The position numbers were made by a program, and so were the translations under genes. A stretch of DNA of 64,000 bases from Arthrobacter citreus. Its GTDB lineage: Bacteria > Actinomycetota > Actinomycetes > Actinomycetales > Micrococcaceae. The DNA lies in NCBI RefSeq assembly GCF_038405225.1, contig NZ_CP151657.1:1798001-1862000 (forward strand). Direction: 5' to 3'. Below are positions 26,044-48,818 of this stretch, one piece after another. Each line of letters opens with the position of its first letter. The stretch's first letter is position 1. The notes beneath the pieces were generated by a model. It had not been told where the DNA came from and made no database searches. It saw nothing but the letters and a program-made list of their open reading frames with translations.

Positions 26044-29000
26044 CTAACCCTGTGACGCAGCGCATACCGAGTGCCCGAGGGCCAGGCTCCGGTCACACCA
26101 CGCGGCGTCGGCCGGGTTGTGGGTGACAACGACGACGGACTTGCCGCGCAGGCCAGCCGTGAGGTCGGCCATCAGCTGCTCGCCGGCCTCGGCGTCCAGG
26201 TGGGCGGTGGGTTCGTCCAGGAGCACGACGTCGGCTTCGGTCAGGAGTGCGCGCGCGACGGCGAGCCGCTGGCGCTGTCCGCCGGAGAGGAAGTGGCCAC
26301 CGCCGCCCACGCGGGTGTCCAGGCCCTCCGGAAGCCCGGCGAGGAAGGGTCCCAGCCCCACGGCGTCGAGCGCTGCCGTCATTTCCGCATCGGTCGGCGC
26401 GTGCCGGCGGTCGCGGGCGAGCAGCAGGTTCCCGCGCAGCGTGGAGTCGAACAGGTGTGCCTCCTGCGGGCACCAGGCCATCCGCCGGGCCGCCGGCGGA
26501 AGGTCGGCGGCGGGAGCGCCGTTGATCCGGAAGGTGCCCTGCTGCGGCACCAGGAAGCCAAGCAGGACGCCCAGAAGTGTCGATTTTCCGCTGCCGGACG
26601 GCCCGGTGACGGCCAGCCAGCTGTCCGGGTACAGGTCCAGGTCCAGGTCCGTGAAGACCGGGGTTCCCTGGCCGGGATAGCTGTAGCTGACACCGCGCAG
26701 CTGGACTGTTTCCACGGGCTGCGCTGCGGAAGCCGTTTGCGTTTCCGGCGTTTCACCGTCCTGGGTTTCCAACGGCTCGACGTCGTCGGTTCCGAGGTCA
26801 GGCAGCACCTTGTCGCCCAGCGTGCGCCATGCCGTGAACTGCTGGATGGAACCGTTGACTGCCACGAAGGCTTCGATGAGGGCGAGCTGCATCAGGACAA
26901 CAACGGCGGCAACCGTGGCCGGCACTGAGTGCGCCACCGTCAGGATGTACAGCGATCCGAGCGAGCAGGCCAGCGCGGTCAGGGCATTGGCAAGGCCCTG
27001 GGCCCAGGCGCTGCGCCGTACTGCGGCGGAGGCGCGGGCATCCAGTTCCTGCTGCCCCGCAAAGACCTCCTCCGCGCTGCTGTTGGCCGTCAGGTCAGGA
27101 GCGGCGGAGAGCAGCCGGGCCATGGCGGACATGGACCGGGACTGCAGCCGCACGGTTGCCGCGCGTGCCGCGGCATCGGCACCGTGGGCCATCAGGGGAG
27201 CAATGACGAGGCCGACCACGCAGACGGCAATCTGCACCGGAAGCGCCTCGGGCAGCAGCAGGCCGGTCGCGATGCACGCGGCTACGGCCGTGAGGAACCC
27301 GGTCAACGGGGCAAAAACGACGCGCGGGGCAATATCCCGCAGTTCGTCGACGTCGCCGACCAGGCGCTCCAGGGCACCGCCGCCGCGGGCGAGGCGGCGC
27401 CAGCCTTCGGGGCGCTGCAGCAGCCCGTTCCAGAGCCGGATGCGGATGGAGTTGGTGGCGCGGAAGACGGCGTCGTGCAGCTGCAGCCGCTCAAGGTAAC
27501 GCAGGACGGAGCGGCCAATGCCGAAGAACCGGACACCGACGATCGCGGCGAGCAGCAGCAGGATGGGCGGCTGCTCGAAGGCGCGGACAATCAGCCAGCC
27601 GGACAGCGAGGTGAGAGCCACGGCAAAGAGCGTTGCTCCGGTGCCCAGCAACAGCGCCAGGAGGAACTGCCGGCTCCACGGGCGCAGGACCACGAGGTTC
27701 TTCCACAGGGGCTGGTGCTTCGGGTGGGTTTCGGTTTCCGCCAGCTCCTCCTGCCAGCGGACGGGGGCCGGTGCGGCGGAGTGCAGGGTGTCGGTGGTCG
27801 GGGCCGCCGGCGCGTCATGGCCGGAAGCCTGGCCGGGAACAGGGCCGGGAGTGGCCTCGGACGCGGTCTGCGCCGCAGCGGGACCGGAAGCGGACGGAAG
27901 CGTCTGCGGCAGGTCCGCACCGGCGTCGCGGTCTTCTGAGGACCACACCGGAATCACGCGGTCGGCGATGGAGGCCGCGGCCTGATCATGGGCCACCAGC
28001 AGGACGGTGACCGAACCGCGCAGGCTGTTCAGGGCCCGGATCACGGCGCCGGCACTGCTGGAGTCCAGATGAGCCGTGGGCTCGTCGGCGAGCAGCAGGC
28101 GCACCTGGGGCTGTGAGGCAACCCGGGCCAGGGCGCGGGCGACCGCGACGCGGCGCTGCTCCCCCGGGCTCAGGTCAGCCGTGCGGGTGTCCAGCAGGTG
28201 CAGGGCATCAATGGCGGTCAGCGCCTCCACGGCTGCCTGCCGGCCTTCTTCTCCGTTCAGCCCCGAGTACAGGGCAATCTCGGCTGCCGTGGTCTCTTCC
28301 ACCAGCACCGGGTGCTGGGGGATCCAGGCAATGCCGGCCCGCTCGACGCCGGTAACGGTGCCTTCGATCATGGTGTCGCCGCCGCTGCGGCGCAAGCCGG
28401 CGAGCGCCTCCAGCACTGAGGTCTTGCCGGTGCCGGACGCACCGGTCAGCGCGGCGATGCTGCCGGCGGGCACACTGAAACTCAGGTCAGCGACGGCAGG
28501 CTTCGGCCGTCCGGCATACCGGATGGTCAGCCCCGAAACGGTCACTGCGGTTCCCGCCGGGAAACCTGGACCGGCGGGCAGCGCGGCGGTTCCCGGCACC
28601 AGCGGCACCGCGGCGGGAGCATCGAGAACGGCGTTGGTCCGCTTCAGGGCCTCCAGGCCGTCTTCGCTGGCATGGTGTGCGGTGCCCAGATCGCGCAGCG
28701 GCTGATAGCACTCCGGTGCCAGGATCAGCGCCAGCAGGCCCAGCTCCAGGGACATGGATCCGTTGACCAGGCGCACGCCGATGACCACGGCAACCAGGGC
28801 CACCGAAATGGTGGCAATCAGTTCCAGCGCCAGGGATGACAGGAACGCCACGCGGAGGGTTTCCAGTGTGCGGGTGCGGTAGTTGTCGGCAACATCGCGC
28901 AGTGCCCGGGTCTGGGCGTGGGCACGGCCCAGGCCCACGAGGACCGGCAGGCCCCTGGCAAGCTCGAGCATGTTGTCGGAGAGCCGGTTCAGGGCGTCAA

Positions 29001-29544
29001 CGGCTGCCGCGGTCTTGTCGCCGGTGTGCAGGCCGATGAGGATCATGAACACCGGGATCAGCGGCACGGTCAGGACCACCACCAGCGCACTGAGCCAGTC
29101 CGCCGACAGGATACGCAGCCCCACCAGCAGGGGCACGACGGCGCAGGTCACCAGGGCGGGCAGGTACTTGGCGTAGTAGTTGTCCAGGCCGTCGAGTCCA
29201 CGGGTGATCAGCACGCTCAGCGCGCCGCTGCCCATGCCCGGCACGCTGCCGCCGTCGTCCAGCGCCCGGGATGTCAGCGATGCGCGCAGCTCCTCCTTGA
29301 CACCTGCCGCGGCGCGCTGCGAAACGGTGTCCGTCCCCCAGACGGCGAGTGAACGCAGCACGGCGCCGGCAATGCCATTGGCCAGTACCCACCGCCAGTC
29401 CGGTTCACCGGTGGCCAGTCCGGCCACGCCTGCGGCCACACCGGTGGCGAGCAGCACCAGGCCTGCGGCCTTGACCGCGGCCAGGAGTCCGAGGAGGTAC
29501 AGCGCGCGCCGGCTGGCGGCACTGACGGGAAGCACCGGTTTCAT
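26044..29544 (-). CDS. cydDC: Fused CydD-CydC thiol-reductant ABC exporter
   Basis: Exports glutathione or cysteine-type reductants to the outside, needed for assembly of cytochrome bd. One 1166-residue chain holds a CydD-like half (membrane domain about 1-320, ATPase with GASGTGKTSV near residue 370 and LSPGEQRRVAVARAL) and a CydC-like half (membrane domain about 610-880, ATPase with GPSGSGKSTL near residue 985 and LSGGQRQRLAVARALL). A Pro/Ala-rich linker joins them. The signature in the first half is LSPGE, not LSGGQ. It overlaps cydB by 4 bases. Fusions like this are known in actinobacteria. Confidence 0.92.
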   Translation of the reverse strand: MKPVLPVSAASRRALYLLGLLAAVKAAGLVLLATGVAAGVAGLATGEPDWRWVLANGIAGAVLRSLAVWGTDTVSQRAAAGVKEELRASLTSRALDDGGSVPGMGSGALSVLITRGLDGLDNYYAKYLPALVTCAVVPLLVGLRILSADWLSALVVVLTVPLIPVFMILIGLHTGDKTAAAVDALNRLSDNMLELARGLPVLVGLGRAHAQTRALRDVADNYRTRTLETLRVAFLSSLALELIATISVALVAVVIGVRLVNGSMSLELGLLALILAPECYQPLRDLGTAHHASEDGLEALKRTNAVLDAPAAVPLVPGTAALPAGPGFPAGTAVTVSGLTIRYAGRPKPAVADLSFSVPAGSIAALTGASGTGKTSVLEALAGLRRSGGDTMIEGTVTGVERAGIAWIPQHPVLVEETTAAEIALYSGLNGEEGRQAAVEALTAIDALHLLDTRTADLSPGEQRRVAVARALARVASQPQVRLLLADEPTAHLDSSSAGAVIRALNSLRGSVTVLLVAHDQAAASIADRVIPVWSSEDRDAGADLPQTLPSASGPAAAQTASEATPGPVPGQASGHDAPAAPTTDTLHSAAPAPVRWQEELAETETHPKHQPLWKNLVVLRPWSRQFLLALLLGTGATLFAVALTSLSGWLIVRAFEQPPILLLLAAIVGVRFFGIGRSVLRYLERLQLHDAVFRATNSIRIRLWNGLLQRPEGWRRLARGGGALERLVGDVDELRDIAPRVVFAPLTGFLTAVAACIATGLLLPEALPVQIAVCVVGLVIAPLMAHGADAAARAATVRLQSRSMSAMARLLSAAPDLTANSSAEEVFAGQQELDARASAAVRRSAWAQGLANALTALACSLGSLYILTVAHSVPATVAAVVVLMQLALIEAFVAVNGSIQQFTAWRTLGDKVLPDLGTDDVEPLETQDGETPETQTASAAQPVETVQLRGVSYSYPGQGTPVFTDLDLDLYPDSWLAVTGPSGSGKSTLLGVLLGFLVPQQGTFRINGAPAADLPPAARRMAWCPQEAHLFDSTLRGNLLLARDRRHAPTDAEMTAALDAVGLGPFLAGLPEGLDTRVGGGGHFLSGGQRQRLAVARALLTEADVVLLDEPTAHLDAEAGEQLMADLTAGLRGKSVVVVTHNPADAAWCDRSLALGHSVCAASQG

Positions 29545-30560
29545 TGGGCGTTCACCGTGTGGGCTGCCGGGATGGCTTCAGCCGTGATGCGCTTGCGGAA
29601 CACCCAGTAGGTCCAGCCCTGGTACAGCACCACCACGGGCAGGCCGAAGAGTGAGACCCAGGAGATCACGGTCAGTGTGTAGTCCGAAGACGATGCGTTG
29701 TCGACGGTCAGGCTCCAGGCCGGATCCAGTGTCGATGGCAGCACGTTCGGATACAGCGAGGCGAAAATGGTGAACACTCCGGCCACCAGGAACAGGCCCA
29801 TCCAGATGAAGCTCCAGCCGTCGCGTCCGCGGCGGGCCATGATCCAGGACAGTGCCACGGCCACCACGGCGAGCACCAGCGGAATCAGGGTCAGCGCCTT
29901 GCCGTTCTGCAGCTGCACCACAATGGCCCAGGCGGCCATGGGCAGCACGCCCAGGGGCAGCCAGCGGACGACTGCGCGGCGGGCCCGCACCTGGATGTCG
30001 CCGCGGGTCTTCAGGGCCAGGAACACGCAGGCGTGCACCAGGCAGAAGGCCACCACGGCCAGGCCGCCCAGGACGGCGTAGCCGTTGAACCACGCGAACG
30101 CACCGCCCACCCGGTCGCCGTTCTCGTTCAGCGGCAGGCCGGTGGTGGTTAGGGCCAGCGCGGCCCCCACACCGAAGGCGGAGACGAAGGAACCAAGCGC
30201 CATGGCCCAGTCCCAGCGGTTGCGCCAGCGGTCATCGTTGTGCTTGCCGCGGTACTCGATGGACACGGCCCGGAAGATCAGGCCCAGCAGGACGAAGACC
30301 AGCGGAAGGTACAGGGCCGAAAACAGTGCGGCGTACCAGAGCGGGAAGGTGGCAAAGGTCATGGCTCCGGCGGTGATGAGCCAGACCTCGTTGCCGTCCC
30401 AGACCGGGCCGATGGTGTTGAGCATGACCCGGCGGTCCTTCTCGCTGCGGCCCATGAGCTTCATGAGCATGCCGACACCGAGGTCGAATCCTTCCAGGAA
30501 CAGGTATCCGGTCCAGAGGAAGGCCAGGACGATGAACCAAAGGGTGGGTAGCGAAATCAC
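29541..30560 (-). CDS. cydB: Cytochrome bd oxidase subunit II
   Basis: Membrane subunit of the high-affinity quinol oxidase, 339 residues. It begins with the typical LPTLWFIVLAFLWTGYLFLEGFD (given here as LWFIVLAFLWTGYLFLEGF) and has FDLGVGML, GPVWDGNEVWLITAGAM and about eight hydrophobic spans. It is 36 bases downstream of cydA and overlaps cydDC, so cydA-cydB-cydDC is one operon. Confidence 0.95.
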   Translation of the reverse strand: MISLPTLWFIVLAFLWTGYLFLEGFDLGVGMLMKLMGRSEKDRRVMLNTIGPVWDGNEVWLITAGAMTFATFPLWYAALFSALYLPLVFVLLGLIFRAVSIEYRGKHNDDRWRNRWDWAMALGSFVSAFGVGAALALTTTGLPLNENGDRVGGAFAWFNGYAVLGGLAVVAFCLVHACVFLALKTRGDIQVRARRAVVRWLPLGVLPMAAWAIVVQLQNGKALTLIPLVLAVVAVALSWIMARRGRDGWSFIWMGLFLVAGVFTIFASLYPNVLPSTLDPAWSLTVDNASSSDYTLTVISWVSLFGLPVVVLYQGWTYWVFRKRITAEAIPAAHTVNAQ

Positions 30561-30596: not shown

Positions 30597-32249
30597 TTAG
30601 TACGCAAAGCCGAGGACGTCGTCGGGCTGCTTGGTCTTGGTGCCTGTCCCGCCGCTGCCGTCGGAGCCGTCACTGCCGGATCCGTCGTCACCGCCGGCGG
30701 AATCCAAGCCGCCGGAGGAACCGCCGTCGTGCCCCTCACCGTGCAGGAGTTCGGGCATGGCCGAGGGAACACCACCCCGGGTGAACTTGAACAGCAGCCG
30801 CACTTCCACGATCAGCAGCGCCAGGTACACCAGGACGAAGGCTGCCAGCGAGAACAGCAGCTCGGCCCGCGAGACGCCCGGTGACACAGCCGAGGCGGTG
30901 AACATGAACACCTGGTCGATTCCGGTGAAGCTGGGGTTGGGTGCCACCACGAAGGGCTGGCGGCCCATTTCGGTGAAGATCCAGCCGGCGCTGTTGGCGC
31001 CGAAGGGTGCCAGGATGCCGAACACTGCCAGCCGCATGAGCCACTTGGACTGCGGCACGGTGCCCTTGCGGGTGACCCAGAGGGCCACGGCCGCGGCAGC
31101 TGCGGCAATGGCGCCAAAGCCGATCATGATGCGGAAACCCCAGTAGGTCACTGACATCACCGGCAGGTAGTCAATCTCGGTGCCGGCCTGCTCACCGTAC
31201 TTGGGGTCATCCGGAATGTGCGTGCCGTACGCCTCCTGGTACTCGGGGATCAGCGTGTTGACGCCCTTGACCTCGGTGTCGAAGTCGTTGTTCGCCAGGA
31301 AGGAGAGCAGCCCGGGGACCTCAATGACCGCGGTGACGTCGTCGCAGTTCTTCGCACCGACGTCGCCGATGGAGAGGATGGAGAAGGACGTGCCGTCATG
31401 GCATGCCGCTTCGGCGGCGGCCATCTTCATGGGCTGCTGGTCGAACATGAGCTTGCCCTGCAGGTCACCGGTGACGGCCGTGCCCGCGAAGGAAATCATG
31501 GCGACGACGGCGCCGATGCGCAGGGACTTGATCCAGACATTGTGGTCCGCCTTGTCGCGGCCAATCTCGGGGCGGGAACCAACGTTGACGGTGCCGTCCT
31601 CGTTCACGGTGTCGATGCCGTCCCGGCGCCGCTTCCAGAGGTGGTACCAGGCGATGCCCAGCAGGAACCCGCCGGCCACGGACAGGGCCGCGGTGATTTG
31701 GTGCGGGAAGGCCACCAGCAGCGTGTTGTTGGTCAGCACGGCCCAGATGTCGGTCAGCACCGGCCGGCCGTCAACCATTTCCACGCCAACGGGGTGCTGC
31801 ATCCAGGAGTTGGCCGCCAGGATGAAGTAGGCGGAGAGCACCGAGGCCAGCGTTGCGATCCAGATGGATGCCAGGTGTATTTTCTTCGGCAGCCGGTCCC
31901 AGCCGAAGATCCACAGGCCGAGGAACACGGACTCCGTGAAGAAGGCCAGGAGTGATTCCAGGGCCAGCGGGGCCCCGAACACGTCACCGACAAAGCGGCT
32001 GTATTCGCTCCAGGCCATGCCGAACTGGAATTCCTGCACCAAACCGGTGGCGACGCCCATGATGAAGTTGATCAGGAACAGCTTGCCCCAGAACTTGGTC
32101 ATCCGCAGGTATTCGTCTTTTCCCGTTCGGACCCACATCGTCTGGAGAGTGGCGACCACCAGCCCCAGGCCGATGGTCAGCGGCACCATGAGGAAGTGGT
32201 AGACAGTGGTGATGCCGAACTGCCAGCGGGCAATATCGAGTGCTTCCAA
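30597..32249 (-). CDS. cydA: Cytochrome bd oxidase subunit I
   Basis: Haem-carrying subunit that oxidises quinol and reduces O2 to water, 550 residues. Haem-ligand regions are readable: FGITTVYHFLMVP (haem d/b595 His) near the N terminus, a central His in the VAFPHQITAALSV region, and the family motif EMGRQPFVV. The Q-loop is of the short type. The C-terminal 45 or so residues after the last membrane helix are a Gly/Ser/Asp-rich tail not found in the E. coli protein, ending KQPDDVLGFAY. First gene of the cyd operon, divergent from blaI with two BlaI-type dyads between them. Confidence 0.95.
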   Translation of the reverse strand: MEALDIARWQFGITTVYHFLMVPLTIGLGLVVATLQTMWVRTGKDEYLRMTKFWGKLFLINFIMGVATGLVQEFQFGMAWSEYSRFVGDVFGAPLALESLLAFFTESVFLGLWIFGWDRLPKKIHLASIWIATLASVLSAYFILAANSWMQHPVGVEMVDGRPVLTDIWAVLTNNTLLVAFPHQITAALSVAGGFLLGIAWYHLWKRRRDGIDTVNEDGTVNVGSRPEIGRDKADHNVWIKSLRIGAVVAMISFAGTAVTGDLQGKLMFDQQPMKMAAAEAACHDGTSFSILSIGDVGAKNCDDVTAVIEVPGLLSFLANNDFDTEVKGVNTLIPEYQEAYGTHIPDDPKYGEQAGTEIDYLPVMSVTYWGFRIMIGFGAIAAAAAAVALWVTRKGTVPQSKWLMRLAVFGILAPFGANSAGWIFTEMGRQPFVVAPNPSFTGIDQVFMFTASAVSPGVSRAELLFSLAAFVLVYLALLIVEVRLLFKFTRGGVPSAMPELLHGEGHDGGSSGGLDSAGGDDGSGSDGSDGSGGTGTKTKQPDDVLGFAY

Positions 32250-32276: not shown

Positions 32277-32293
32277 TTCTACAGAGCGTAGAA
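32277..32293. promoter_or_regulatory. Candidate BlaI operator A (cydA side)
   Basis: Dyad TTCTAC-AGAGC-GTAGAA, 28 bases upstream of the cydA start. Its arms are identical to those of operator B and to the site at 48391-48407. BlaI proteins of actinobacteria bind TAC/GTA dyads of this kind. Confidence 0.75.
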
Positions 32294-32333
32294 GTTCGTT
32301 CTTAATTTGATCGTAGAGCACTTGGGAAGAGTT

Positions 32334-32350
32334 TTCTACGTGATGTAGAA
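32334..32350. promoter_or_regulatory. Candidate BlaI operator B (blaI side)
   Basis: Dyad TTCTAC-GTGAT-GTAGAA, 120 bases upstream of the blaI start and 57 bases from operator A (start to start). A possible half site, CGTAGA, lies between them near 32312. Confidence 0.75.
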
Positions 32351-32469
32351 CCAACGCCGAAAAGCCTGTACATTAGACACACCACACCTCCTCTGTACCG
32401 GCCGGCAGTGCACGCCGTCCGCGGTGAGTGGAGGTTTTTGATTTGTGTGATGCGAAGGACGGAACACGG

Positions 32470-32847
32470 ATGGCCACCCTCGGCGAGCTGGAACGGGCAA
32501 CAATGGATCTCCTGTGGGAGTCTCCGGAGGCAGCCAGTGCGAATGAACTGCGTGAAAAACTGGCTCAGGCCAACCCCGGGGCAGGCACAGGATCCGGCAA
32601 GGGCCTGGCCGTAACCACCATCCTCACGGTGCTGTCACGGCTGGAAAAGAAGGGCCTGGTTGCACGGGAGCGGAACATCCGTCCGCACCGTTACCGTGCC
32701 GTCACCACCAAGGCCGAGCACACCGCCGAACTGATGCATGAGGTTCTCGGCTCGGTGAGCGACCGTGAAGCCGTGCTGGCCAGGTTCATCGGCTCCGTAT
32801 CAGTGACGGAAGCCGAGACGCTCCGGCGGCTCCTCGGCGGCGCCTGA
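32470..32847 (+). CDS. blaI: BlaI/MecI-family transcriptional repressor
   Basis: Winged-helix repressor of 125 residues (LGELERATMDLLWESPEAAS, VTTILTVLSRLEKKGLVARER, then a dimerisation helix region). In this family an M56 metallopeptidase inactivates the repressor, and one is encoded 30 bases downstream. The start at 32470 (MATLGELE) is chosen because it fits the family and follows GGACGGA; an ATG 14 codons upstream is possible. It is divergent from cydA, and the shared dyads suggest that it controls both itself and the cyd operon. Confidence 0.9.
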   Translation: MATLGELERATMDLLWESPEAASANELREKLAQANPGAGTGSGKGLAVTTILTVLSRLEKKGLVARERNIRPHRYRAVTTKAEHTAELMHEVLGSVSDREAVLARFIGSVSVTEAETLRRLLGGA

Positions 32848-32877
32848 TCCGGTAGCCCCGCCTACTTTTCCGCCGCG

Positions 32878-33852
32878 GTGTTCTGGGCCTCATATTGCCT
32901 AGCCGCGCTGGCCCTCGTGCTGGCGTGGCCGGTGCCCATTGCCCTCTCCCGGGCCAAATGGCCGGCGCGGTCCCCCTTCACCGCCATGGTGCTGTGGCAG
33001 GCGATCGCCCTCGCCGGTGGCCTGTCCATGATCGGGTCCATGCTGACCTGGGGCCTTGAGCCCATTGGGAACAATCTCGTCTCGGCGCTGCACGGGTTAT
33101 GGAACATCCTGCTGGACCGGGCACCGGCCACAACCTTGGGACTGGTGCATGTCTTCGCCCTCAGCGCCGCCCTGCTGCTGACCGTCCATCTGGTCTTCAC
33201 TCTGCTGCTGACGTACTACCGCATCCGCCGCGGCCGACGCCGACACCGTGGCATGCTGACCCTGCTGAGCTCCCCCTCAGCCACCCGGCCCGCCACGGTG
33301 GTTATTAACCACCCGACGCCGGTGGCCTACTGCCTGCCCGGCGGGGCGCGTTCGGTCACCGTCCTGTCGGACGGACTGCTGGAGATGCTGTCGGATGAGG
33401 AACTCTCCGCGGTTCTCATCCACGAAAAAGCCCATTTGTCCCAGCGGCACCATCTACTGCTGTGGGCCTTTGCCGCGTGGCGGGCGGCCCTGCCCTGGCT
33501 GCCGACCTCACAATTGGCCCAGCAGTCAGTGAATGAGCTCATTGAGATGCTGGCCGACGACGAGGCCCTGCGCGCCGTGGATCCAGAGACCCTGATTCGG
33601 GCCGTGGCGATTGTGGGAACCGGCGCGCAGCCTGCCGAAGGAGGCCTTCAGGGCGCCGCCGCAAAGGCCCAGGGCGCGTCCCTGCTGGCCAGCCCCGACG
33701 AGCAGGAACAGCTGGGCACCGTGCGTCGCCTGAGCCGGCTGCTGACGCCCCTGCCACCGCTGCCGGGCTGGCAGCGGTGGGCGGTGCTGGTGGTCTCCGT
33801 GCTCCTGCTGGCCGTCCCCACCGCCCTGCTGATTGCGCCGGGGATGCTGTAG
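32878..33852 (+). CDS. M56-family (BlaR1-like) membrane metallopeptidase without sensor domain
   Basis: Integral membrane zinc protease of 324 residues. There are about three N-terminal membrane spans (1-25, 35-55, 88-115), a cytoplasmic catalytic domain with HEKAH (His182, Glu183, His186) and ELIEMLADDEAL (third ligand), and a C-terminal span (about 300-322). BlaR1 proteins carry a penicillin-binding sensor domain after the last span; here the chain ends at once, so the signal is not read in that way. It starts with GTG and no obvious ribosome-binding site. In frame with blaI after its TGA, so likely co-translated. Confidence 0.88.
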   Translation: MFWASYCLAALALVLAWPVPIALSRAKWPARSPFTAMVLWQAIALAGGLSMIGSMLTWGLEPIGNNLVSALHGLWNILLDRAPATTLGLVHVFALSAALLLTVHLVFTLLLTYYRIRRGRRRHRGMLTLLSSPSATRPATVVINHPTPVAYCLPGGARSVTVLSDGLLEMLSDEELSAVLIHEKAHLSQRHHLLLWAFAAWRAALPWLPTSQLAQQSVNELIEMLADDEALRAVDPETLIRAVAIVGTGAQPAEGGLQGAAAKAQGASLLASPDEQEQLGTVRRLSRLLTPLPPLPGWQRWAVLVVSVLLLAVPTALLIAPGML

Positions 33853-48390: not shown

Positions 48391-48407
48391 TTCTACCTGT
48401 TGTAGAA
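48391..48407 (+). promoter_or_regulatory. Candidate BlaI operator C on the promoter of the small membrane protein
   Basis: Dyad TTCTAC-CTGTT-GTAGAA with the same arms and the same 5-base spacer as the two sites beside cydA/blaI. Its right half overlaps a plausible -10 element, TAGAAT (48403-48408), 63 bases upstream of the gene start. Confidence 0.75.
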
Positions 48408-48470: not shown

Positions 48471-48818
48471 ATGGACTTCCTACAGAGCTTCCTTGTCTTC
48501 CTGCACATCCTTGGCGCAGCCATCATCGTTGGCATCTGGTTCGCGAGAATCAAGAACCCCACGGTGATGCCCGGCCAGTTCCACGCCGCACTGCTGCAGC
48601 TGGTCACCGGATTGCTGCTCGTTGGCCTGGCCGAAATGGATGACTACGACGTCAACCACATCAAGATCGCGGTCAAGCTGACTGTTGCCCTGGTCATTGC
48701 CGTGCTCGCCTTCATTGGCCAGCGCCGGTACAAGAAGGATCAGCCGGTCAGCGGACTGCTGGCCAACGGCGTCGGCATCCTGACGGTGCTGAACATCGCC
48801 CTCGCCACCATGTGGTAA
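48471..48818 (+). CDS. Small four-span membrane protein, unknown function
   Basis: Protein of 115 residues made of about four membrane helices (FLVFLHILGAAIIVGIWF, LLQLVTGLLLVGLAEM, IAVKLTVALVIAVLAFIG, LLANGVGILTVLNIALATMW) with short loops and the conserved-looking MDDYDVNHIK. The first helix recalls CopD/DUF2269-type membrane proteins with an intramembrane His, but I cannot assign a family. Its promoter carries a BlaI-type dyad shared with cydA/blaI, suggesting a link to respiration or envelope stress. Confidence 0.8.
   Translation: MDFLQSFLVFLHILGAAIIVGIWFARIKNPTVMPGQFHAALLQLVTGLLLVGLAEMDDYDVNHIKIAVKLTVALVIAVLAFIGQRRYKKDQPVSGLLANGVGILTVLNIALATMW

Follow-up and report, generated by a model that had tools for sequence, protein, structure and literature searches.

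Why should a repressor of the BlaI family and a membrane protease be encoded beside the genes of a terminal oxidase? The question is raised by a 64,000-nucleotide stretch of the Arthrobacter citreus genome (contig NZ_CP151657.1, positions 1,798,001 to 1,862,000; hereafter the window, with coordinates counted from its first nucleotide), in which blaI and a protease gene are divergent from cydA-cydB-cydDC, the genes of cytochrome bd. An initial annotation of the window had proposed that the pair is wired to cytochrome bd and that an envelope or respiratory signal switches electron transport to the bd branch. Operators found in this genome (3.88 Mb, single contig) and in its relatives point to a wider function: BlaI is probably the repressor of an oxidative-phosphorylation regulon, neither restricted to cytochrome bd nor primarily part of a beta-lactam system.

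Operators at the cydA/blaI gap and at respiratory operons

The cytochrome bd genes are all located on the minus strand and comprise cydA for subunit I (30597..32249, TTG start; PF01654, 508 bits), cydB for subunit II (29541..30560; PF02322 and TIGR00203) and cydDC for a fused ATP-binding cassette (ABC) exporter of 1166 amino acids (26044..29544; TIGR02857 for CydD and TIGR02868 for CydC, both above cut-off). As the initial annotation had recognized, two exact TTCTAC-N5-GTAGAA dyads lie between these genes and the divergent blaI-protease pair. They are putative BlaI-type operators, namely the cydA-proximal operator 1 (TTCTACAGAGCGTAGAA, 32277..32293) and operator 2 (TTCTACGTGATGTAGAA, 32334..32350). 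A third exact dyad, the putative operator 3 (TTCTACCTGTTGTAGAA, 48391..48407), had been overlooked. They were the only matches in the window at up to two mismatches; in 100 dinucleotide shuffles the mean was 0.21 and the maximum 1.

A genome-wide scan for the dyad, which had been proposed as a check, returned five perfect sites versus one for the reversed pattern. Ten further places contain one mismatch. As the cydA/blaI gap accommodates two of the perfect sites, the 15 places correspond to 14 loci. Genes at these loci were named by reading the neighbours and by Pfam and NCBIfam scans. Eight of the 14 loci precede respiration, heme or tricarboxylic acid cycle operons: the cydA/blaI gap with its two perfect sites; hemQ-hemH; a resA-like gene with ccdA-resB-ccsA (cytochrome c maturation); the ATP synthase operon, whose first gene encodes a Cg1360-family ATP-synthase-associated protein (site TTCTATGTGCTGTAGAA at 642923); ctaE-qcrC-qcrA-qcrB; an ABC transporter operon with ctaA (heme A synthase) as last gene; sucC-sucD; and a CopD-CtaG fusion. 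Cg1360 and Rv1303 are presumably counterparts.

The switch towards the bd branch is not supported by this set, as the same type of operator is also found at genes for bc1/aa3, ATP synthase, heme and cytochrome c maturation. Since the competing bc1/aa3 branch carries the operator too, release of BlaI should lead to higher expression of the respiratory chain as a whole.

Weaker sites were treated with caution. ctaC-ctaD is preceded by a site with a CTAC-N5-GTAG core and two mismatches to the full pattern, which was kept in the target set solely for its conservation in 20 of 22 BlaI-positive genomes. The site about 50 nucleotides upstream of the ctaB start (1266234, two mismatches) is a candidate only. 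Genome-wide sites with two mismatches, which among the matches listed reach about 2.41 Mb, were set aside as a source of extra targets, as 30 of the 35 fetched lie within predicted genes. The exact core CTAC-N5-GTAG occurs at 15 places, ten of them in the set with up to one mismatch, one at ctaC and four elsewhere. Two of the latter (306484 and 973118) lie at gene ends, the genes being one for a ribosomal protein and one that is aldo/keto-reductase-like, and two (2537961 and 2538037) adjoin a GntR-like gene, all named by eye.

The position of the operators relative to predicted promoters was also compared among relatives. In the window, putative -10 boxes were read from the sequence for cydA (TACGAT, 32310..32315, minus strand) and blaI (TACATT, 32369..32374, plus strand), both at TAnnnT offsets seen among relatives. 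Either box is 18 nucleotides from the respective end of operator 2, which would cover the -35 region of both divergent predicted promoters. A TAnnnT motif was found 18 nucleotides beyond the blaI-proximal operator in 72 of 80 named loci (see below), a distance that would place the operator over the blaI -35 region. On the cydA side, 68 of 79 named loci had TAnnnT 21 or 22 nucleotides before the proximal operator, but only 7 of 20 genomes of a wider family set did. In 14 of 15 atp sites a TAnnnT begins within the right arm, and at ctaC a TAnnnT overlaps the left arm at 19 of 20 sites. Such overlap of operator and promoter box would be expected of repression by occlusion, although it is not proof of it. 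Operator strength also differed by promoter. Perfect copies mostly number two or three at the cydA/blaI gap and usually one at hemQ, whereas variants prevail at atp (TTCTAT at most sites) and ctaC (CTCTAC/GTAGTA at most sites).

Co-occurrence of operators with BlaI and its distribution

Operator content was then compared with the presence of BlaI in 30 genomes of the family (Micrococcaceae), of which 22 encode a clear BlaI (49-76% identity), six have no match and two have a distant BlaI only (37-38%). Five promoters (cydA, hemQ, atp, ctaC, ctaE) were tested after locating the genes by protein search. An operator with up to two mismatches was present at 82 of 108 promoters in the BlaI-positive genomes versus 0 of 25 in the BlaI-less ones; in the two genomes with distant BlaI it was found at 2 of 10, both being cydA promoters and both sites perfect. 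Among genomes with cydA, the cydA operator was perfect in 20/20 BlaI-positive, 0/3 BlaI-less and 2/2 distant-BlaI genomes, leaving out G051 (a 28-residue match) and second, distant CydA-like matches in G025 and G026. Up to one mismatch was observed at hemQ in 14 of 22 BlaI-positive genomes (12 perfect) and at atp in 15 of 22, versus none of the eight others in either case. The ctaC site, at up to two mismatches, was present in 20/22 versus 0/7. For ctaE the numbers were 9/22 (up to one mismatch) and 12/22 (up to two) versus 0/7, and in seven more BlaI-positive genomes the best match had three mismatches, six of these at -79 to -100. For comparison, after shuffling of the atp, hemQ and ctaE upstream windows 11 of 1320 showed a site with up to two mismatches, and such a site was found at 5 of 175,985 downstream positions.

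Action in trans is favoured by three genomes. In G022, cydA and blaI are on separate contigs, both with perfect operators, and G030 and G043, which yielded no cydA, keep operators at two and four, respectively, of the other four promoters.

These data bear on a narrower possibility, namely that BlaI controls just cydABDC and itself and thereby diverts electrons to the bd branch. The cydA/blaI gap does have the strongest operators and a conserved synteny, and to that extent the connection of the repressor-protease pair with cytochrome bd was annotated correctly. However, the operators at atp, hemQ, ctaC and ctaE are conserved in BlaI-positive and not in BlaI-less genomes, and G030 and G043 keep such operators without a detected cydA. 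On the basis of these four promoters we rejected wiring to cytochrome bd only, which we regard as quite improbable; the earlier proposal was too narrow and had missed the wider target set.

The operator upstream of blaI itself was conserved in every family locus read. All 13 genus genomes searched (own included) hold 4-6 perfect sites, with 0-2 for the reversed control, and perfect sites were absent from all six genomes of other families. Within the genus, perfect sites recur at cydA/blaI, at hemQ and at the genes of the 115- and 139-amino-acid membrane proteins described below. A BlaI match was found in 55 of 61 family genomes (own included). In the 30 best-scoring family loci, again with our own, a perfect operator precedes blaI in every case and cydA is divergent in 25. 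The same was seen in the 80 best of 427 named loci, which come mostly from Arthrobacter and close relatives: a perfect operator upstream of blaI and a protease gene in all 80, and a divergent cydA in 79. Perfect copies numbered three in 60 of these loci, two in 19 and one in a single locus. The base table of operators was built from perfect sites only, so that its arms are invariant by construction.

Beyond the family, BlaI matches were obtained in 37 of 99 genomes of the order, and among 26 new loci read there cydA was divergent from blaI in 21 and a perfect operator present in nine. A match (E 1e-10) was obtained in 116 of 197 class genomes. Of 24 new class loci, 12 contained cydA; in family f36 these were 8 of 12 loci, and in f22 none of 8. 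The f36 CydA, with 27-31% identity where aligned, represents another type, which we take to be CioA-like; its gene is divergent from blaI, and loci L382, L383 and L395 (CydA identity 27-29%) carry perfect TTCTAC-N5-GTAGAA operators. Forty further class loci were chosen by hand from the 116 matching genomes and read over 2.5 kb on each side, a distance beyond which cydA would escape. In 17 of them cydA was divergent (f38 9/9, f45 7/7, f47 1/1), and near blaI in f2, f17, f22, f31, f35, f37 and f50 (21 loci) cydA was absent within that distance. In the distant families, palindromes with other spacers are candidates listed by script. Altogether, cytochrome bd is widely, though not everywhere, paired with BlaI and protease within the class, and more than one type of CydA takes part in this association.

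Two other arrangements were noted in this survey. In f53 (L417, L426; 2/2) cydA is downstream of blaI and protease on the same strand, and in f22 (L385, L429) blaI is located shortly downstream of a type II NADH dehydrogenase-like gene, named by eye.

Several observations weigh against a BlaI regulon of this extent. In these organisms, operators, conservation and co-occurrence are read from sequence. Three of the 14 loci seem non-respiratory (one intragenic site and two genes that by eye resemble lipoprotein and enolase-superfamily genes), and three others precede small membrane proteins of 115, 139 and 95 amino acids without assigned function. At up to two mismatches the reversed pattern outnumbers the real one (125 versus 73), and the 15 places with the exact core compare with 143 for its reversed control; since the control is larger at such loose settings, weight was given to perfect and near-perfect sites alone, together with where they lie and how well they are conserved. 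Five of the six letters of the atp -10 box are operator letters, the added element being a conserved T, and for hemQ no -10 offset stood out (3/14 at best). Moreover, 8 of 22 BlaI-positive genomes have no hemQ site, one counted atp site is doubtful (G045; two mismatches, at -389 and off the usual place), G034 has an operator at cydA only, and 2 of 5 BlaI-less genomes also show a three-mismatch match at ctaE, at other positions. The BlaI-less genomes span three genera only and are not independent, and Fisher values, which ignore kinship, are optimistic. In the loci of f22, f35 and f37 examined, BlaI is not beside cydA. Finally, G059 (L361) and G029 (L362) keep a perfect cydA operator with a distant, unlinked BlaI (37-38% identity); neither has an operator at hemQ, atp, ctaC or ctaE.

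The last finding would suit a scenario in which another regulator binds the dyads and counts blaI among its targets, the more so as binding by BlaI is here a prediction from the DNA. Yet operators accompany blaI in every family and named locus read and none of the 25 promoters of BlaI-less genomes has one. In addition, two Clostridium thermocellum BlaI proteins are assigned paired inverted-repeat motifs, and one of these has the same 5-nucleotide spacing (PMC8457756). We therefore consider an alternative regulator very improbable and retain BlaI as the candidate that acts on the operators.

The repressor, the protease and the predicted signal

The repressor gene blaI (32470..32847, plus strand; 125 amino acids) encodes a BlaI/MecI-family protein (PF03965, 69 bits versus a cut-off of 22.6) and is the sole PF03965 (Penicillinase_R) match of the whole genome. 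Its nearest named relative, among the best 80 of 427 in a set that may omit records of this genome, was BlaI of Arthrobacter gandavensis JCM 13316 (97% identity). Profile search of the Protein Data Bank identified 2g9w as the closest solved structure found (E 5.9e-41), an entry named BlaI Rv1846c in a table of PMC9045315; MecI also matched.

The adjacent gene (32878..33852, plus strand) encodes a BlaR1-like membrane gluzincin protease (M48/M56) of 324 amino acids. Its best-ranked structural matches were S. aureus BlaR1. The M56 label given initially is supported by an HExxH motif with a downstream glutamate in a membrane protein, but in Pfam M56 remained below its cut-off (26.1 versus 31 bits) and M48 passed (40.2 versus 20.3). 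The protein has a zinc motif HEKAH and four predicted transmembrane helices. H182, E183, H186 and E223 were invariant in alignments of 12 and of 28 sequences, and E223 would be the third zinc ligand. The last transmembrane helix was placed at residues 295-313 by hydropathy and at 297-323 in the structure model, and the protein stops right after it. Its relatives measure 307-342 amino acids in 80/80 named loci. No penicillin-binding sensor domain, as at the C-terminus of BlaR1, was matched by Pfam in the protease, and its length together with the terminal helix leaves no room for one.

The architecture of the protease is relevant to the possibility of a beta-lactam or cell-wall stress system that happens to include respiration in its regulon, with cell-wall damage as inducer as in BlaR1/BlaI. 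BlaI and protease resemble the bla/mec pair, and M. tuberculosis BlaI is an established repressor of blaC (PMC12565901). The protease, however, ends where a sensor would have to begin, and no cell-wall gene was found among the operator-linked genes that could be identified. The genes scanned besides cyd encode a GNAT acetyltransferase, a gyrase-B-type topoisomerase subunit, a sigma-70 factor, a DUF4192 protein and OsmC; no beta-lactamase was among these neighbours, in agreement with the initial annotation, the remainder of the 64 kb and the genome elsewhere not having been searched for one, and no adjacent PBP2a gene was seen among them either. A primary function in the response to beta-lactams is thus unlikely in our view.

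For the oxidative-phosphorylation regulon that we favour, we infer BlaI binding, repression, proteolytic release and a signal as follows. A BlaI dimer would bind the TTCTAC-N5-GTAGAA operators at cydABDC and blaI-protease, where these overlap the promoter boxes, and also single, often weaker operators at the heme, cytochrome c maturation, bc1-aa3 oxidase and ATP synthase operons. A signal, probably membrane or respiratory, would activate the membrane protease encoded by the adjacent gene, and the activated protease would inactivate BlaI through cleavage, by which the whole respiratory chain would be raised. cydABDC would be the most tightly held target, perhaps because of its two or three perfect operators.

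Small membrane proteins form a further group of operator-linked genes. Operator 3 is located 63 nucleotides upstream of a gene (48471..48818, plus strand) for a protein of 115 amino acids with four predicted transmembrane helices, a putative member of the BlaI regulon without a match in Pfam or NCBIfam scans. Its orthologue is preceded by a perfect site in five other genus genomes (12 searched). The proteins of 139 (L106:2052-2471) and 95 amino acids (L115:1706-1993), encoded directly behind operators, have two predicted helices each and likewise no Pfam or NCBIfam match.

Other sites were observed in single genomes of the genus. In G006, a perfect operator (2001) is located about 80 nucleotides upstream of a flavohemoglobin gene with globin, FAD- and NAD-binding domains (L089:720-1919). 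Although found in one genome of the genus only, this suggests that nitric oxide detoxification can join the BlaI regulon. Perfect operators were also present at L081, L086, L090, L102 and L104 of other genus genomes, where the neighbouring gene could not be named.

Relation to known systems

The locus appears to encode a BlaI/BlaR1-like pair without beta-lactam sensor domain that is wired to oxidative phosphorylation, of which atp control by BlaI has already been reported in M. tuberculosis. Searches of an open-access library returned no report of BlaI controlling cytochrome bd, cta/qcr (bc1-aa3) or heme genes, with a possible overlap with the primary M. tuberculosis regulon of 2009. If the regulon is real, the 'penicillinase repressor' family would include a master regulator of respiration in many Actinomycetes, and genome annotations would have to change. 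It would also name a regulator of bd oxidase and ATP synthase, relevant to respiration-targeting drugs, and would make directly testable what sensor-less BlaR1-like proteases detect. More tentatively, in many families of the class repressor and sensor-less protease may be a dedicated oxidative-phosphorylation switch. The protease would then read the energetic state of the membrane (quinone redox, proton motive force or heme), and graded operators would order the release from ATP synthase through aa3/bc1 and heme synthesis to, finally, cytochrome bd. Beta-lactam systems might then be a specialisation with an added sensor domain and a resistance output; we regard this extended scenario as possible, with the balance still tilted against it.

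Other regulators are known to govern cytochrome bd in Actinomycetes. HrrA of Corynebacterium controls heme and oxidase genes. Rex controls cytochrome bd in Streptomyces (PMC4172946) and is reported to do so in Saccharopolyspora (PMC5355995). Although Rex and HrrA share this target, their protein families are unrelated to BlaI, Rex senses NADH/NAD+, and no membrane protease is involved.

With the BlaI-BlaR1 and MecI-MecR1 systems of Staphylococcus and Bacillus, the Arthrobacter pair shares the BlaI/MecI family, paired inverted-repeat operators and the arrangement of the repressor beside a membrane protease gene. Unlike in these systems, the Arthrobacter protease lacks a penicillin-binding sensor domain, neither a beta-lactamase nor a PBP2a gene was found adjacent, and the target set is respiratory.

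The BlaI/BlaR pair of M. tuberculosis (Rv1846c/Rv1845c) differs in its surroundings. In f22, by our guess the mycobacterial family, blaI was not beside cydA in 9/9 loci and had no TTCTAC-N5-GTAGAA upstream. M. tuberculosis cydB has been placed under SenX3/RegX3 (PMC7924339). In a sigC mutant under copper limitation, the bd oxidase and ATP synthesis operons rise together (PMC7924339), and clofazimine raises cyd and ATP synthase genes together in M. abscessus (PMC8765290); both co-inductions fit shared control and do not implicate BlaI. With heme or hemoglobin as iron source, growth requires blaR (PMC7058343). Reported targets of M. tuberculosis BlaI include blaC, sigC, atp genes and ftsQ. BlaI of M. 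tuberculosis and M. smegmatis binds the Rv1303-atp and ftsQ promoters and lowers expression, and BlaI knockdown gave no rise in ATP (PMC12565901); sigC and atpH are counted in the BlaI regulon (PMC8265638), and a review describes BlaI as regulator of the atp operon (PMC5874750). It is in this respect that the two systems meet: the mycobacterial repressor provides the closest solved structure, and its atp operon target is predicted here as well, where a BlaI-type operator lies at the Cg1360-family/atpB operon.

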